Origin: Candidatus Latescibacterota bacterium
GTDB taxonomy: Bacteria; Latescibacterota; UBA2968
Assembly: GCA_022821275.1 (NCBI GenBank)
Contig: JAJEDY010000043.1
Coordinates: forward strand, 1-64,000
Direction: 5' to 3'
Length of the DNA: 64,000 nucleotides
In this document: piece after piece, positions 16,097-63,004 of the stretch
How positions within the stretch are numbered: the first letter of the stretch is position 1
Layout: each line of letters begins with the position of its first letter
Position numbers and translations under genes: made by a program
Notes under the pieces: model-generated
Seen by the model: only the letters and a program-made list of their open reading frames with translations
Databases searched by the model: none
What the model was told of the DNA's origin: nothing

Positions 16097-16123
16097 GGGC
16101 GGGCACGGGGGCACCGCCCCTAC
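16097..16123. repeat. GTAGGGGC-family palindrome supplying the rplI stop
   Basis: GGGCGG...CACCGCCC with CTAC. On the minus strand the TAG of its GTAGGGGC edge is the stop codon of rplI. Confidence 0.8.
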
Positions 16124-19237: not shown

Positions 19238-19293
19238 CCAGAATCGCGGGACGGCACAGGGGGCCGTCCCCTACAATGCCCTGCCGCGATGAC
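19238..19293. repeat. Nested repeat: GGGACGGC palindrome inside a family B palindrome
   Basis: CAGAATCGCGGGACGGCACA then GGGGGCCGTCCCCTAC, closing with CTGCCGCGATGAC. The D-type hairpin sits within the two arms of the B palindrome. It fills the space between pth and hppA. Confidence 0.8.
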
Positions 19294-19306: not shown

Positions 19307-19882
19307 TCACTTCATATTATACCTGTTCATCGCCCGTTCAATACCTTCTGTAGCCCAACAGAGCGCGCCATGAACCGCGCGCCCAACCGCATCTGCAATC
19401 ACATCCCGATCCCCGGGTGAAAATTCACCCAGCACATAATCGATCATCCCATCCAATTCGGCGGGTTGCCCAACACCGAGGCGCAACCGCGGAAAATCTG
19501 CAGAACCCAACGCGGATTCAACAGACCGCAAACCATTGTGCCCACCGTGACTGCCCGTGCGTCGGAAACGCAACCGACCCAAATTGAGATGCACATCGTC
19601 AACCACCACCAGCACATCTGCCCGAACAACCCGGAAACACCGCACAACCTCCGCCACACCCCAACCGCTCTTATTCATATACGTCAGCGGCTTAACCAGC
19701 ACCAGATCATCTGAAAACCTGCACCACGTACAAAACTCAAACGCATGCCAGGGCATATCTTTGCCCAGCGCATCGACCACCCAAAACCCCACATTGTGGC
19801 GCGTCTGTGCATAACGCGCGCCCGGATTGCCCAACCCCACAACCGCCTTTGTACGGGCGAAAGATCTTTCGCCCCTACTCAT
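19307..19882 (-). CDS. pth: Peptidyl-tRNA hydrolase
   Basis: 191 residues from the ATG at 19882, close to the usual 190-195. Motifs: [20 protein letters not shown] with the catalytic His, [38 protein letters not shown] and FPRLRLGVG. It frees tRNA from prematurely released peptidyl-tRNA. The ATG overlaps the end of rplY; its first dozen codons ([12 protein letters not shown]) are written by a dispersed palindrome, GTAGGGGCGAAAG/CTTTCGCCCGTAC. Another in-frame ATG lies six codons upstream in rplY. Order ispE-rplY-pth is a familiar bacterial arrangement. Confidence 0.93.
19851..19878. repeat. GTAGGGGC-family palindrome spanning the rplY stop and pth start
   Basis: GTACGGGCGAAAGATC and its mirror GATCTTTCGCCCCTAC. 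One edge supplies the rplY TAG stop, the body codes for the N-terminus of Pth. Confidence 0.85.
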
Positions 19883-20570
19883 CGCCTTCTTCTTCGTCAT
19901 CGCCGCGCCTTCTGCCGCGCTCAATAACCTCAGGCTCCTGCATTTCCTCTTCCCCTTCTTCACCCACCAATTCTGCGTCTTCCTCTTCCTCTTCCTCTTC
20001 TTCAAGAACAAGCGCGGGCGCAGCCACCGCAAACACCGTGCGGTCGGTATCCGTCACAATCGTCAAATCATCGTCATCCACGACGATATCCGAAACGTGC
20101 AGCGAATCCCCGATATCCAGATCCGACACATCAATTTCAATATGATCGGGGATCTCTGTGGGCAGGCACTCGACCTCGAGATCGTGCAACATCTGTTCCA
20201 GGATCCCCTCGCCAATCCGCACCCCAACGGCCGACCCCGTGGCGTGAAGGGGCACCTCAACCACAATTTTGCGCGTCAAATCAATGCGGTGAAAATCCAC
20301 ATGCAAAATCTCATCGCGCACGGGATGATACTGAATATCCTTAATAATAGTACTCTGGTTCGTATCGCCCGCACGCAGCAAAATAATGGCATTGCGACCG
20401 TGTGCCTTCAGCAAATCGGACAACGTGCGCTCATCCACGGAACAGGCAATGGGCGAGGCATTTTCGCCATAAACAACCGCGGGCAATTGACCGCGAAAGC
20501 GCAACCTCTTAGCAACCTTCTTTCCCGAATCCGTGCGAACATCTACATTGAGAGAAACTTGATCGGACAT
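19875..20570 (-). CDS. rplY: 50S ribosomal protein L25/general stress protein Ctc
   Basis: 231 residues: the longer TL5/Ctc form with an N-terminal 5S-rRNA-binding L25 domain (1-90; KRLRFRGQLPAVVYGE, DILHVDFHRID equivalent at EILHVDFHRI) and a C-terminal beta domain (to about 185), then a very acidic tail (EEEEEEEEDAELVGEEGEEE..., 190-231). Start ATG at 20570 begins MSDQVSLNVDVR. The frame stops at GAG TAG inside a dispersed repeat. Tail length may be shaped by that repeat. Confidence 0.94.
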   Translation of the reverse strand: MSDQVSLNVDVRTDSGKKVAKRLRFRGQLPAVVYGENASPIACSVDERTLSDLLKAHGRNAIILLRAGDTNQSTIIKDIQYHPVRDEILHVDFHRIDLTRKIVVEVPLHATGSAVGVRIGEGILEQMLHDLEVECLPTEIPDHIEIDVSDLDIGDSLHVSDIVVDDDDLTIVTDTDRTVFAVAAPALVLEEEEEEEEDAELVGEEGEEEMQEPEVIERGRRRGDDEEEGDE

Positions 20571-20584
20571 ATCTATTCTCCTGC

Positions 20585-20611
20585 GGGCGGGCACGGGGGC
20601 ACCGCCCCTAC
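20585..20611. repeat. GTAGGGGC-family palindrome
   Basis: GGGCGG...CACCGCCCCTAC, nearly the same as the copies at 16097 and 30091; lies just upstream of the rplY start. Confidence 0.8.
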
Positions 20612-21573: not shown

Positions 21574-21817
21574 ATCAGGATTTACAGGATTAAAGGATGA
21601 ACAGGATAAAAGCAAAGGCAACTACAGAAAAGCAACCACAGATGAACATGGATAAACACAGATTGACGCTTTTGGTAAAATATAATACATTCTCGTAAAA
21701 TAAAGAACCTCAGTGGTCAGATAAAAACCTTACTGGATCGCGGCTTTAAGCCTGCCGCGATGACGGGCGACCACAGGCACTGCCCCGTAATGTTTTTATA
21801 CGGGGGGTCGCCCCTAC
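21574..21817. repeat. Mosaic repeats upstream of ispE and the TPR gene
   Basis: Family A at 21574-21610 (CAGGATTTACAGGATTAAAG, GATGAACAGG), family B at about 21732-21765 (CTGGATCGCGG...CCGCGATGAC), and a long D-type hairpin (GGGCGACC...GGTCGCCCCTAC) ending at 21817. A family C copy (TTCATCTGCG units) follows at 21846-21880, ending 8 bases before the TPR start. Confidence 0.8.
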
Positions 21818-21888
21818 GGTTGTTCACACTTCACAAACCCTCTTTTTCATCTGCGTTCATCTGCGTTCATCTGCGGATCACACTTCAC

Positions 21889-24800
21889 ATGACCCTTCTA
21901 AAAAATACATTAATCCTCATCCTCATCCTCGGCGCCTCATCTCACCTCTGCGCGCAGGGGACCCAGGACGAAAACGCCCATTACGAACTCGCACAGCGAA
22001 TCTTCAAAGACGGCCTCTATGCCGATGCCGCGCGGGAATACAAGCAATTCATCATCAACTACCCCACCAGCAAGCGCCTGCCCGACGCCATGTTGCGCGT
22101 TGGACAAGCATACGCCAGAGCCGAACAATACGACCACGCACTCGAAGCCCTTCAACAATACATCGACCGATACCCCGGCCACATCGACGTCATTGTAGCG
22201 ATGCGCACACGCGCCAATGCCCTCAGCCAACTCGGAGAACACACCCGGGCTGGCGCAGCCTATCGCGAAGTACACGCGGCCTATCCCGCCTCGACAAACG
22301 CGCCCCAGGACCTCTTATCAGCCGGAGAGAACCACCACAAAGGCGGCGCCTTATCAGACGCTGGCGCAGCCTATCGCCAACTCACCGAACAATACCCCAA
22401 ATCATCCCTCATCAACGAAGCCACCTTCAACCTGGGCCGCGTCCTCCTTGAAGAAACGCGCACCGAAGAAGCCCTCGAACAATTTCGCACCCTCGTCGAA
22501 CGCCCCGGACCATCCAAACGCAAACCCGACGCCCTCCTCGAAATGGGCAACATCGCCCTCTCGCGCGACAACCTCCCGGAAGCAGAACGCATCTTTGCAA
22601 ACCTGCGCGCCAGATATCCCGCAACACCTGCCGCCCAAAACACATACCTCATCATAGGCGCGTGGTACGCCGGCAAAAACGACTGGACACGCGCTGAAAA
22701 AACCTATAACAACGCCCTCGCAAAAATACCGAACAACACCCGCCTGCAGCAAGCCCTGTTGGGAAGTGCGAATGCAAAACGCAAACTCGGCAAAAGCCAG
22801 GGCGCGCTACAGCGCTACGCCGCATTTCTAAGAGCCTATCCCCAAAGCCCCTTCCACGCCCACGCCCTGATAGGCTATGGCCGCACATTTGCAGACCTGA
22901 AAAATTACCGCAATGCACTGGACGCATTTAAAAACCTGCAAGAAAAATATCCAGACACGGACATCAGCATCCAGGCATACGGCGACATCGGAAACATCTG
23001 GCGCGCCCTGGGAACGCACCAGAAGGCATTATCGGCCTATCAAACATACCTCGCGCGCATACAATCCCCTATCGAAAAAGCCAATGCCCGACTGCACATC
23101 GCGCAAATCTGCGAAGACCTGCACTGGCACGACCTCGCAGCCGAAAATTATCGCATCCTCATCAACAGCCCACTTTCACACTACGCCGCCGAAGGTCAAA
23201 TTGGCCTTGCCCGCATATTTGAAAAAACCGGACAAACCGAACTCGCACTGCGAGAATACCGCACCTACATCAAAAACCACGGCGACACACCGCATGCCGA
23301 CACAGCGGAAACGCGCATCCAACTCCTCACCGAATACGGCACAGAAACCGACCGCGACCGCACATGGATCGAACTCCTCGCCAACCTGCCCGGCATCGCC
23401 GACGATGCACACACGCAACTAAAACTGGGCAAAACCTTCTACGACCAAAAATACTACAACCGCGCAATCACCCACCTCGAAGCCGCGCTCGTATCCCGGG
23501 GATTGCCCCTCAACATCACGCTGCCAAACCTATCCGCCAAAGCATTAAACACAACATCTGCACCACCACCTGCCCCAACACCTGACGACACACTCGCCCT
23601 TGCAGTCCGGGCTGCCCTTGCAGCCGAAGCCGCACTCGCATTGGCGAATGACGACGGGCGGGTACAGGAAAATATGCGGGACGGCACGGGGGCCGTCCCC
23701 TACACATCTGAAGACATACCCGCCGAAGAACCCGGCGAAACAGCCAACGACACACCCATCGACACACCCCCACCCAGCGACACATCGGACGACGCATTCA
23801 CCAACGCGCCCCCCTGGGCACCTGAAGCCTATTACCTCCTCGGCAACAGCTACTTAAAACAGGCGCGCAGAGCCACCCTCGAAAACAAATCTCCAGACCA
23901 ATGGCAAAACAGGGGCCTCACAGCACTCAAAATACTCATCCAAAAACTCCCCGAAAACGACCACACCGAAAACGCCGCACGCGCAGTCATACACACAGAA
24001 ACAGCCCACATACAACCCGACACCCTCCGCGCACAAACGCGCCTGAGCGCCTATCGCGCATATCGCAAAACACATAGTCCCGACCTGCGCCTGCAAATCG
24101 CCGACGCCCACTTCGCCAGCACCCACATCGACAGCGCCTTGAGCATATACCTCCAGCTCCAAAAAACAGATCGCGATCCAAAAATAAAAGAAAAAGCCAC
24201 CTATGGCATCGGCCTGTGTCAAGCCAGAAAACAACAACACGCGCGCGCCGAAGAAACCCTGAAAAACTTTCTCTTCAACTATCCCCAGAGCGACCTGTCA
24301 CCGCACGCGCAATACCAACTGGGACGCATACTCCTCGACCGGGAATTTTACGCCAGCGCCGCCGAAGCATTCTCCGAACTCCTATCCGCATCCCCAACAC
24401 TCGCACTTCGGCGAACTGCCCGCGACCTGTTGGCAGAAAGCTACCATCGCCTGAGCAACTACGAACGCGCCATAGAAATAGACGAAAGCCTGATCACCCA
24501 CAACCCCACCCCGCAATTACTGCGTCGCCTCGCCGAATCCTATGCACACAACAACCAGCGCGACAAAGCCATCACAACTTATAACATGTACCTCCACAAA
24601 TACCCACAAGCACCCGACGCCGACAGCATCGCCTACACACGCGCCGAACACCTGACACACCTCAACCGCACATCGGAAGCCCTCACCGCCTTCCGCGAAT
24701 TCTCAAAAAAATACCCCAACAGCCCCCTCGGCACACACGCAGACCAGGCCATAGGCGACCTCCTCTTCCAAACGGAAAAATACACCCAGGCCATCGCCGC

Positions 24801-25782
24801 GTACCAGCGCATACCCAAAACCGCGCGCAACGAAACCATGGCCGCACGCGAAATCTTGAGCTACTACCGCCTGCGGCGCATTGGCGAAGCCAACAAAGCC
24901 GCGGGAGAATTCAAAAAAACCCACAAAACGGCAACCGAATGGATCGCCCGCTTTGAAGTGGAAAAAGGCAAATATCAACTCGCCGTCAGAAACCCGAAAA
25001 AAGCGCGACAAATTTTTGAAGACATCACAAAAAAATACGCCACCACCGAAGCAGAAGCCGACGCGCGTTACTACCTCATTCGCGCCTACTATAACGAGGG
25101 ACCCGACAAAGACGGCAACAACGAACCCTATCTCAACGCCCTGGGCACCTTCATAAAAAATTACACCGACAGCCCGCACTGGGTAGATGCCAACATCGAA
25201 CTCGCCGAATTTTGGGAACGCAACGAAGAATACAACCTGTCTGCCCGCGCATATCGCAACGCCATAGAAAAAGGCGTCGCCCAATCCGAAAAACCCGGCA
25301 TCCTCCACAAACTCGCAAAAAATTACAGCAACCTCAACGCCTATGACCTCGCCATCAACTTCGCGCGCCAACTCATCCGCGAATTTCCCCAGGACCCCCT
25401 TGCCCTGGACGCCCGCATCGACATCGGCACCATATACCTGCCCAACAAAGGCGACCACGAGCAAGCCATCGCAGAACTTCGGCCCCTGCTCAAAATCGTA
25501 ACCGTAAAAGACGAAAGAGCCAGCATCCAGTACGCCATCGCAGAAAGTTATTACGAGCTGGCCGACTACGACAAATCGCGTCGAGAATTTTTAACCCTGC
25601 GCTACAACCAGAACGCGGGACCTATGTGGATCGCATCTGCACAAATGAAAATCGCAGAAACCTATGCGGCACAGAATAAAATTGAAGAAGCCATACGAGA
25701 ACTCGAAGCCATAAAACGCAACCACGGCGCGGCCAGTAATTATGGTATTCAGGCAGAGAAACGCATACAACAACTAAAATAA
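21889..25782 (+). CDS. Giant periplasmic or outer-membrane TPR protein
   Basis: 1297 residues. Signal peptide 1-22 (TLILILILGASSHLCAQ). Then more than twenty TPR-type helical hairpins of the YbgF/BamD sort (ALEALQQYIDRYPGH, AEETLKNFLFNYPQSDLSPHA, AIAAYQRIPKTARN), running to the end. A proline- and acid-rich linker of about 60 residues (roughly 565-640) breaks the array, and residues 597-605 in it (RDGTGAVPY) are written by an inserted dispersed palindrome. Likely a protein-protein scaffold at the cell envelope; function not known. The chosen ATG follows a repeat; longer frames upstream are repeat-derived. The sigma-54 regulator follows six bases later. Confidence 0.85.
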   Translation: MTLLKNTLILILILGASSHLCAQGTQDENAHYELAQRIFKDGLYADAAREYKQFIINYPTSKRLPDAMLRVGQAYARAEQYDHALEALQQYIDRYPGHIDVIVAMRTRANALSQLGEHTRAGAAYREVHAAYPASTNAPQDLLSAGENHHKGGALSDAGAAYRQLTEQYPKSSLINEATFNLGRVLLEETRTEEALEQFRTLVERPGPSKRKPDALLEMGNIALSRDNLPEAERIFANLRARYPATPAAQNTYLIIGAWYAGKNDWTRAEKTYNNALAKIPNNTRLQQALLGSANAKRKLGKSQGALQRYAAFLRAYPQSPFHAHALIGYGRTFADLKNYRNALDAFKNLQEKYPDTDISIQAYGDIGNIWRALGTHQKALSAYQTYLARIQSPIEKANARLHIAQICEDLHWHDLAAENYRILINSPLSHYAAEGQIGLARIFEKTGQTELALREYRTYIKNHGDTPHADTAETRIQLLTEYGTETDRDRTWIELLANLPGIADDAHTQLKLGKTFYDQKYYNRAITHLEAALVSRGLPLNITLPNLSAKALNTTSAPPPAPTPDDTLALAVRAALAAEAALALANDDGRVQENMRDGTGAVPYTSEDIPAEEPGETANDTPIDTPPPSDTSDDAFTNAPPWAPEAYYLLGNSYLKQARRATLENKSPDQWQNRGLTALKILIQKLPENDHTENAARAVIHTETAHIQPDTLRAQTRLSAYRAYRKTHSPDLRLQIADAHFASTHIDSALSIYLQLQKTDRDPKIKEKATYGIGLCQARKQQHARAEETLKNFLFNYPQSDLSPHAQYQLGRILLDREFYASAAEAFSELLSASPTLALRRTARDLLAESYHRLSNYERAIEIDESLITHNPTPQLLRRLAESYAHNNQRDKAITTYNMYLHKYPQAPDADSIAYTRAEHLTHLNRTSEALTAFREFSKKYPNSPLGTHADQAIGDLLFQTEKYTQAIAAYQRIPKTARNETMAAREILSYYRLRRIGEANKAAGEFKKTHKTATEWIARFEVEKGKYQLAVRNPKKARQIFEDITKKYATTEAEADARYYLIRAYYNEGPDKDGNNEPYLNALGTFIKNYTDSPHWVDANIELAEFWERNEEYNLSARAYRNAIEKGVAQSEKPGILHKLAKNYSNLNAYDLAINFARQLIREFPQDPLALDARIDIGTIYLPNKGDHEQAIAELRPLLKIVTVKDERASIQYAIAESYYELADYDKSRREFLTLRYNQNAGPMWIASAQMKIAETYAAQNKIEEAIRELEAIKRNHGAASNYGIQAEKRIQQLK
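23677..23703. repeat. GGGACGGC palindrome inserted in the TPR coding sequence
   Basis: CGGGACGGCACGGGGGCCGT then CCCCTAC, nearly the same as the intergenic copy at 19248-19274. It stays in frame. Confidence 0.85.
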
Positions 25783-61669: not shown

Positions 61670-63004
61670 ATGAAACCCGTACTCACACTCCTCGTACTCG
61701 TCCTGGGCCTCGGTTTGCCCATCCGGGCAGACGAAGTACACATCGCCAAAATCAACGGCACCATTGAAGGTGGCGTAGCCGCTTTTGTCAAACGCGTCAT
61801 GAGCGACGCAGAAGACGCGGGCGTCAAAGCTGTCGTCTTCGAAATCGACACCCCTGGCGGTGCCCTCGATGCCGCCCTCACCATCCGGGACGCCATCCTC
61901 TACAGCGAAACCAAAACCATCGCCTTCATCAACCCCCGCGCCATATCTGCAGGCGCCCTCATCGCGCTCTCAACCGACCACATCATCATGGTCGAAGGCG
62001 GCACCATTGGCGCGGCCACAGCCGTCGATATGCAGGGCAACAAAGCCAGTGAAAAAATCATCTCGTACTTCCGCAACGAAATGAAAGCCACAGCCGAAAA
62101 AACCGGTCGCTCCTCCAAACTGGCCGAAGCCATGGTCGATGAAGACGTCGATGTCGAGGGCCTCGCGCCCAAAGGCAAGCTCCTCACCCTCACCACTGAG
62201 GAAGCCATTGAAAACGACATCGCCGAACACAAAATCTCCGAAAAAAACGAATCGGAAAAACTCATCGCCGTACTCAAGCACTACGACCTCGTACAGGCCA
62301 ATGTCATCCACCAATCGACCAACTGGGCCGAACAAGCCGTGCGCTACCTCACCCACCCCTATCTCGCGTCGCTGCTCATGACCCTGGGATTTTTGGGCCT
62401 GATCTTCGAAATCCAAAGCCCGGGCTGGGGCATCGGCGGCACCATCGGCTTAATCTGTCTGGGCCTCTTTTTCGGCAGCCACCTCCTCGTCAATCTCGCC
62501 GACTGGTCTGAAATCCTCATCTTCCTGATCGGCATCGCGCTCATCCTCCTCGACCTGTTCTTTGTCGTGGGCTTTGGCCTCCTCGCCATACCCGGCGCAA
62601 TCCTGGTCTTAACCAGCCTGTTCTTAAGCCTCATGGGACGCTTTGACCTCTGGACCTGGGACGACATCAGCGCCGCACTCACACCCTTGCTCCTCTCTGT
62701 GATCCTCACGGGAGTCCTCGCCATACTCATCTTGCGATCCCTCCCAAAATCCAGAATGTGGAACCGCCTCGTACTCGACATCGAAGAAAAATCATCCGAA
62801 GGATATGTTGCGGCACCCTATAGCGACCTCCTCGGCGTATCGGGTATCGCATTCACAGACCTGCGACCCGGAGGCACCGGCGTATTTGACGGCCGCCGCA
62901 TCAGCGTATCGACCGAAGGCGAATACTTAACCAAAGACACACCCGTCACAATCATCGAAATTGAAGGCAGTCGCGTCATCGTGCGAAAAACCGAAGACAC
63001 ATAA
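61670..63004 (+). CDS. NfeD-family membrane protein with ClpP-type serine protease domain
   Basis: 444 residues. Signal peptide 1-20; ClpP-like protease domain (25-220) with [15 protein letters not shown], Ser93 in [10 protein letters not shown] and [15 protein letters not shown], with a lysine near 125-129 as the likely partner base; four to five membrane helices (about 230-375); and a C-terminal OB-fold NfeD domain ([20 protein letters not shown], about 390-440). Long NfeD proteins of this type work with flotillin/stomatin partners, and the next gene is floA, 20 bases away. Codons before this ATG are repeat-derived. Confidence 0.93.

Follow-up and report, generated by a model that had tools for sequence, protein, structure and literature searches.

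A GTAG-tagged REP at the rplY–pth junction of a Latescibacterota genome, probably translated as the N-terminal tail of peptidyl-tRNA hydrolase

We analyzed a short repeat that lies across the boundary of two housekeeping genes, rplY and pth, in a 64-kb stretch of a Latescibacterota genome (hereafter the window). The repeat is a 28-base GTAG-tagged hairpin on the minus strand (19878–19851, GTAGGGGCGAAAGATCTTTCGCCCGTAC). It is very probably a GTAG-tagged REP that has been spreading in the genus, landed in frame at this junction, and is now the tail of Pth. Eleven congeneric genomes, as judged from their sequences, show the junction to be a turnover hot spot that holds a REP, a different REP, a nested REP, a scar, or none of these.

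The junction and the neighboring elements in the window are as follows.

19851–19878, minus strand: GTAG-tagged REP, comprising GTAG (19878–19875), the palindrome GGGCGAAAGATCTTTCGCCC (19874–19855), and GTAC (19854–19851)

19307–19882, minus strand: pth, peptidyl-tRNA hydrolase (TIGR00447, PF01195; 191 aa)

19875–20570, minus strand: rplY, 50S ribosomal protein L25/Ctc (PF01386 and PF14693, TIGR00731; 231 aa)

20585–20611, minus strand: REP from a different subfamily, GTAGGGGCGGTGCCCCCGTGCCCGCCC, just ahead of the rplY ribosome-binding region; sister genomes lack it or differ here

19248–19274, minus strand: REP GTAGGGGACGGCCCCCTGTGCCGTCCC, in the interval separating pth from the H+-pyrophosphatase gene (PF03030); polymorphic in sister genomes

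16097–16123, minus strand: REP giving the stop of rplI (L9, 16563–16120), whose TAG is at 16122–16120

The junction palindrome is perfect over 20 nt and follows directly on GTAG, as in the GTAG-tagged REPs, in which the tag sits 5′ of a palindrome of ~20–40 bp; a repeat search reports it as a 17-nt overlapping inverted repeat that is 94% complementary. Its minus-strand context is ...GAAGGCGATGA-GTAG-GGGCGAAAGATCTTTCGCCC-GTAC-AAAGGCGGTTGTGGGG.... An earlier note on this DNA had placed a palindrome at 19851–19882, crossing the two genes. The repeat is real, and its sequence, the rplY stop, and the pth frame all read as described there, but the element proper spans 19851–19878, and 19879–19882 is the native ATGA.

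Related elements are abundant. Within the window, GTAGGGGC occurs 12 times, all on the minus strand, against 1.3 expected. Across the 5.66-Mb genome, the one-sided pattern GTAGGGGCGN{6,22}CGCCC matched 79 times and its reversed form, used as a control, twice, which puts the number of GTAGGGGCG…CGCCC hairpins at 79 or more; the symmetric pattern GTAGGGGCG...CGCCCCTAC gave zero matches because the 3′ end usually differs from CCCCTAC. A rough gene caller placed 56 of 78 hairpin-bearing copies between genes, with intragenic counts taken from genome samples. High copy number, dispersal, and a mostly intergenic location are those of GTAG-tagged REPs, and the characterization of the repeat as dispersed and mobile-looking was borne out: it belongs to a known mobile class and is present or absent among sister genomes. 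The exact 24-mer of the junction REP has two genomic copies (the junction and C20:68919), with close variants at other sites. The stems fall into several subfamilies (GAGGCATGCCTC, GGTGCCCC.GTGCCC, GACCCCCTGTGGTC, GGGTTTC.AACCC, and the GAAARATCTTTC type), the last of which includes the junction REP.

The termini of these elements also supply TAG stops, as is common for GTAG-tagged REPs; beyond rplY, the sampled genome yielded four further 3′-overlapping cases, rplI among them. rplI is the second ribosomal-protein gene in the window to end on a REP TAG. At the pth/pyrophosphatase site of one sister (G007), the stop of pth itself is a REP TAG, and the elements 5′ of rplY, at rplY/pth, and at pth/pyrophosphatase have all been gained or lost between species. 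Elsewhere in the window (~21766–21817), a REP loop is swapped for a longer insert (GTAGGGGCGACCCCCCGTATAAAAACATTACGGGGCAGTGCCTGTGGTCGCCC) in what resembles a hairpin within a hairpin. G007 additionally carries a strong REP cluster, nearly all on one strand, at C1:530,000–925,000 (~0.4 Mb of a 6.5-Mb genome). An apparent 1-Mb single-strand REP block in the outgroup G008 was rejected as an artefact of listing forward matches first; even sampling returned both strands.

We compared the junction segment bounded by the ATG of pth and a conserved Lys-Ala in the window genome (G000) and ten genomes of the same genus, with G008 as outgroup. The sisters are ~80–92% identical to G000 over concatenated neighboring genes. 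A REP is present in five of the eleven (G000, G007, G002, G010, and G004; two subfamilies, one nested), a short scar in two, and no REP in four. The junctions of the ten read:

G007: MRRGEKSFAPI-KA, REP

G010: MSRGEKSFARTI-KA, REP

G002: MCRGEACLALPT-KA, REP differing from that of G000

G004: MSRGVGAKDFSPLRFAPK-KA, REP nested in a REP

G005: MSRRT-KA, short GTAG-containing scar

G009: MSRGA-KA, short GTAG-containing scar

G001, G003, and G006: MSRSV-KA, REP-free

G008 (outgroup): MRRSM-KA, REP-free

Relative to the REP-free form, the junctions differ by 0, +18, +21, or +39 nt, multiples of three in all nine distinct sequences. In trees of neighboring genes, filled and REP-free genomes are intermingled, and no fewer than two gains or losses are required. 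By nucleotides, G000 joins the three REP-free sisters with 97% support; the tree of amino-acid sequences disagrees on its position, with weaker support (57%). The earlier note had proposed that close relatives be aligned. Sisters indeed lack the REP, hold another one, or carry a scar, and REP-free Pth proteins start differently; the single recent insertion that it envisaged gives way to one state of a repeatedly turning-over junction.

At pth, the ATG (19882) overlaps the end of rplY (ATGAGTAG), and residues 2–11 of the enzyme are wholly or partly encoded by the REP, in a frame different from that of rplY. REP-free and filled junctions read ATGA-GTCGTAGTGT-AAAGG and ATGA-GTAGGGGCGAAAGATCTTTCGCCCGTAC-AAAGG, so that 28 nt stand in place of 10 and Pth gains a net six codons (+18 nt). 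In an AlphaFold2 model built from 41 sequences (mean pLDDT 92), residues 1–7 fall below a pLDDT of 50, and strand β1, which adjoins the invariant GLGNPG, occupies residues 12–16; alignments to known Pth structures mostly begin at residues 10–14. The REP-coded residues are thus predicted to form a mostly disordered tail before β1, outside the fold. Pth might instead begin at an in-frame ATG at 19900, 18 nt further upstream, which would leave the argument for translation unchanged. The preservation of frame in sister genomes indicates that the REP is translated as the Pth N-terminal tail, in agreement with the initial reading that the repeat body encodes the start of this protein.

The other gene is hardly changed. 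RplY ends in ...EEEGDE, with its stop (TAG, 19877–19875) inside the GTAG of the REP. REP-free sisters end in GDES* or GDAA*; their TAG stop, one codon further on (GAG TCG TAG; GCG GCG TAG), is likewise part of a GTAG, and rplY stops on TAG in REP-free distant relatives as well. The REP therefore need not have written the stop: its TAG does end rplY, as had been claimed, but a TAG is already present in sisters that lack the element. By the same comparison, the idea that the repeat became part of two housekeeping proteins stands for Pth, on the evidence of frame, and not for RplY, which appears altered by a single residue.

We weighed three other accounts of the junction. It is highly improbable that the REP is an untranslated leader and that Pth starts downstream, at GTG Val15 or TTG Leu17. 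According to the published description of the superfamily (PMC3733652), N-terminal REPs within annotated ORFs in many cases reflect misannotation, and REPs that seemed to lie inside our SecA and AP-endonuclease-like genes were rejected as intragenic, sitting upstream of likely true starts. At pth, however, starting at Val15 or Leu17 would delete most of β1, there is no in-frame ATG, GTG, or TTG between the REP and Val15, and every junction variant is in frame with the upstream ATG. We also consider it quite unlikely that the hairpin owes its persistence to a role as an RNA element controlling the coupling of rplY and pth, being opened by a ribosome that terminates at the TAG or holding down Pth output, and is not simply a tolerated insertion. 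The hairpin starts at the rplY stop, a few bases from the pth start, and is stable when folded in isolation (−16.4 kcal/mol, z −4.8), and other REPs lie in the 5′ regions of rplY and the pyrophosphatase gene; yet the fold of the whole junction is not clearly better than that of shuffled sequences (z −1.2), hairpin and flanks vary between species, four of the eleven genomes, outgroup included, lack a hairpin, and two others show just scars.

A stronger contender, though still on the unlikely side, holds that the genus ancestor already carried the REP, with the short GTAG-containing junctions being deletion scars and not sites that were never filled. GTAG does persist in REP-free junctions (GTCGTAGTGT; GCGGCGTAGCATG), those of G005 and G009 are clearly scar-like, and the nucleotide and amino-acid trees conflict over where G000 branches. 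Against this, the outgroup (TAGCATGAAG) has its ATG right before the conserved Lys and reads as a native start, more distant relatives begin GTG-AAG in a form resembling it, and the TAG stop of rplY occurs in distant relatives that lack REPs. We favor gain and loss of a mobile REP within the genus.

Candidate transposases are present. RAYT-like HuH-Y1 genes occur in G000, G007, G010, and, truncated, G004. Their matches score below the NCBIfam cut-off, and the three full-length proteins retain both the HuH and the tyrosine (QRNYYEH or QRNFYEH) motifs. The G000 gene (contig C72, ~62,000–62,500) matches NF047646 at E 5.6e-18 with 65 bits against a cut-off of 80, and carries NHIHG and QRNYYEH; that of G007 (C1:~5,586,900) matches at E 1.5e-13, with HuH and Tyr motifs. 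The genes of G007 and G010 were missed by PF01797 alone and found with NF047646. A phmmer search of PDB chains with the G007 protein found no relative, and we found no RAYT in G008, though REPs are many there.

The G007 gene is linked to REPs of the GAAAAAYCTTTC type, with copies of GTAGGGGCGAAAAACCTTTCGCCC on its flanks and GTAGGGGCGAAAAATCTTTCGCCC in frame inside it; the REP at pth has this latter form in both G007 and G010. Next to the RAYT-like gene of G000, we found no REP of the pth type. In all four RAYT-like genes, an in-frame REP-like insert, of differing subfamilies, follows shortly after the HuH motif (VGAKN..., VGAGFKPAPT, VGAPLVGALVGA, VGAKDFSP); the transposase seems to have become a host for elements of its own kind.

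The REPs are oriented according to local GC skew, with GTAG on the G-rich strand, at 67:11 in sampled G000 and 42:6 in sampled G007 copies, and the association holds against the direction of the nearest gene (21:6 and 17:2, respectively), these counts resting on a simple codon-score caller for gene directions and on REPs that are not mutually independent. It is weak in G008 (27:12). The window has a GC skew of −0.23, and all 18 of its GTAGGGG motifs lie on one strand. IS200/IS605 elements insert into the lagging-strand template (PMC6006769). The bias that we see is what such insertion would give, a link that we infer.

REPs also lie in frame in other proteins of the genus encoded in this genomic block. 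One lies in the window within a gene for a TPR protein:

23678–23703, minus strand: REP in the linker of the TPR protein (21760–25782, plus strand), antisense and in frame (RDGTGAVPYT)

At this site sisters hold other REP peptides or none, and across species the peptides GRGMPRPYT, GEKSFAPT, and DGTGAVPYT vary in number. The linker of this protein is hypervariable and partly made of REP-encoded peptides. Behind the N-terminal hydrophobic segment of an HtrA-like protease, DVGAKDFSPL is present in G004 only; comparison with its sister G005 (ATTGDVGAKDFSPLTAEE versus ATTGEAALTAEE) again shows 28 nt in and 10 out. That footprint fits Pth and the HtrA-like gene; as a fixed rule it was rejected, since other sites do not follow it and intergenic footprints are non-uniform. 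GAKDFSP also lies near the C-terminus of IspE (so named from its sequence; the Pfam match is to GHMP kinase) in G004 and G007. The elements are read in differing frames and on both strands, which argues against conservation of the peptide as such.

How does this system relate to those already described? GTAG-tagged REPs consist of an unpaired GTAG 5′ of a short hairpin, exist in many copies, often end a neighboring ORF with their TAG, and in some copies lie inside ORFs (Di Nocera et al. 2013, PMC3733652, from the part of its text available). Ours share all of these features, an assignment made by structure; 24 family consensuses have been published for the superfamily. TAG stops and protein segments supplied by REPs are already documented in that text, and the junction is a new, well-resolved case, which differs from what is described there in its Latescibacterota host and in that eleven congeneric genomes resolve how REPs were gained, replaced, and lost at a single junction of an essential gene. 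A limited literature search for REPs in Latescibacterota found no paper.

The likeness to the REP/RAYT (TnpA_REP) REPtron lies in an HuH-Y1 REP-associated tyrosine transposase gene in the genome (below cut-off in G000), in same-subfamily REPs around that gene in G007, and in perfect-palindrome REPs, as in the second REP group (Corneloup 2021, PMC8266576). The inverted arrangement of REPs flanking rayt genes is said to be constant (Nunvar 2010, PMC2817692); those of G007 stand in direct orientation, each of the four RAYT-like genes has the insert after the HuH motif, and the G000 gene does not sit beside a REP of the pth type. We take the system to be no classical REPtron, and it may only work like one. 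Rickettsia palindromic elements (RPE), which are ~150 bp long with a conserved peptide, are likewise palindromes that sit inside housekeeping proteins without breaking the frame (Ogata et al. 2000, as reported in PMC10969869). In-frame palindromes absent from orthologues are found here in Pth, the HtrA-like protease, IspE, and the TPR protein, but they are GTAG-tagged elements of 24–28 nt (28 at the junction), read in several frames and on both strands. No single peptide is therefore kept, unlike in RPE, which the junction REP resembles in behavior only.

We propose that a RAYT-type HuH transposase would recognize the GTAG hairpin in single-stranded form, probably in the template of the lagging strand, with GTAGGGGCGAAAGATCTTTCGCCC as its candidate target, and would paste REP copies at new sites, mostly between genes. 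At rplY–pth, a copy would have entered the short segment that separates the start codon of pth from the first β-strand, with 28 nt gained and ~10 nt of the former junction lost (net +18). pth is essential in bacteria generally. For that reason only in-frame outcomes would survive, leaving the REP to be translated as a mostly disordered, presumably near-neutral, tail of Pth. More tentatively, and at somewhat less than even odds, a still-active REP system may repeatedly rewrite the termini and linkers of Pth, IspE, the HtrA-like protease, the TPR protein, and RAYT, at hot spots recurring in different species and in an orientation set by the replication fork.

N-terminal REPs are often suspected to be misannotated starts; the eleven congeneric genomes indicate a REP within an essential enzyme. 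At rplY–pth the reading frame is policed while copies at one spot have been gained, exchanged, nested, and lost, which makes the junction a simple case of mobile DNA contributing new tails to proteins. Pairs of filled, scarred, and REP-free sites are material for reading REP insertion and, if our interpretation is true, such junction pairs would be insertion footprints for a class of element whose transposition has not been watched.
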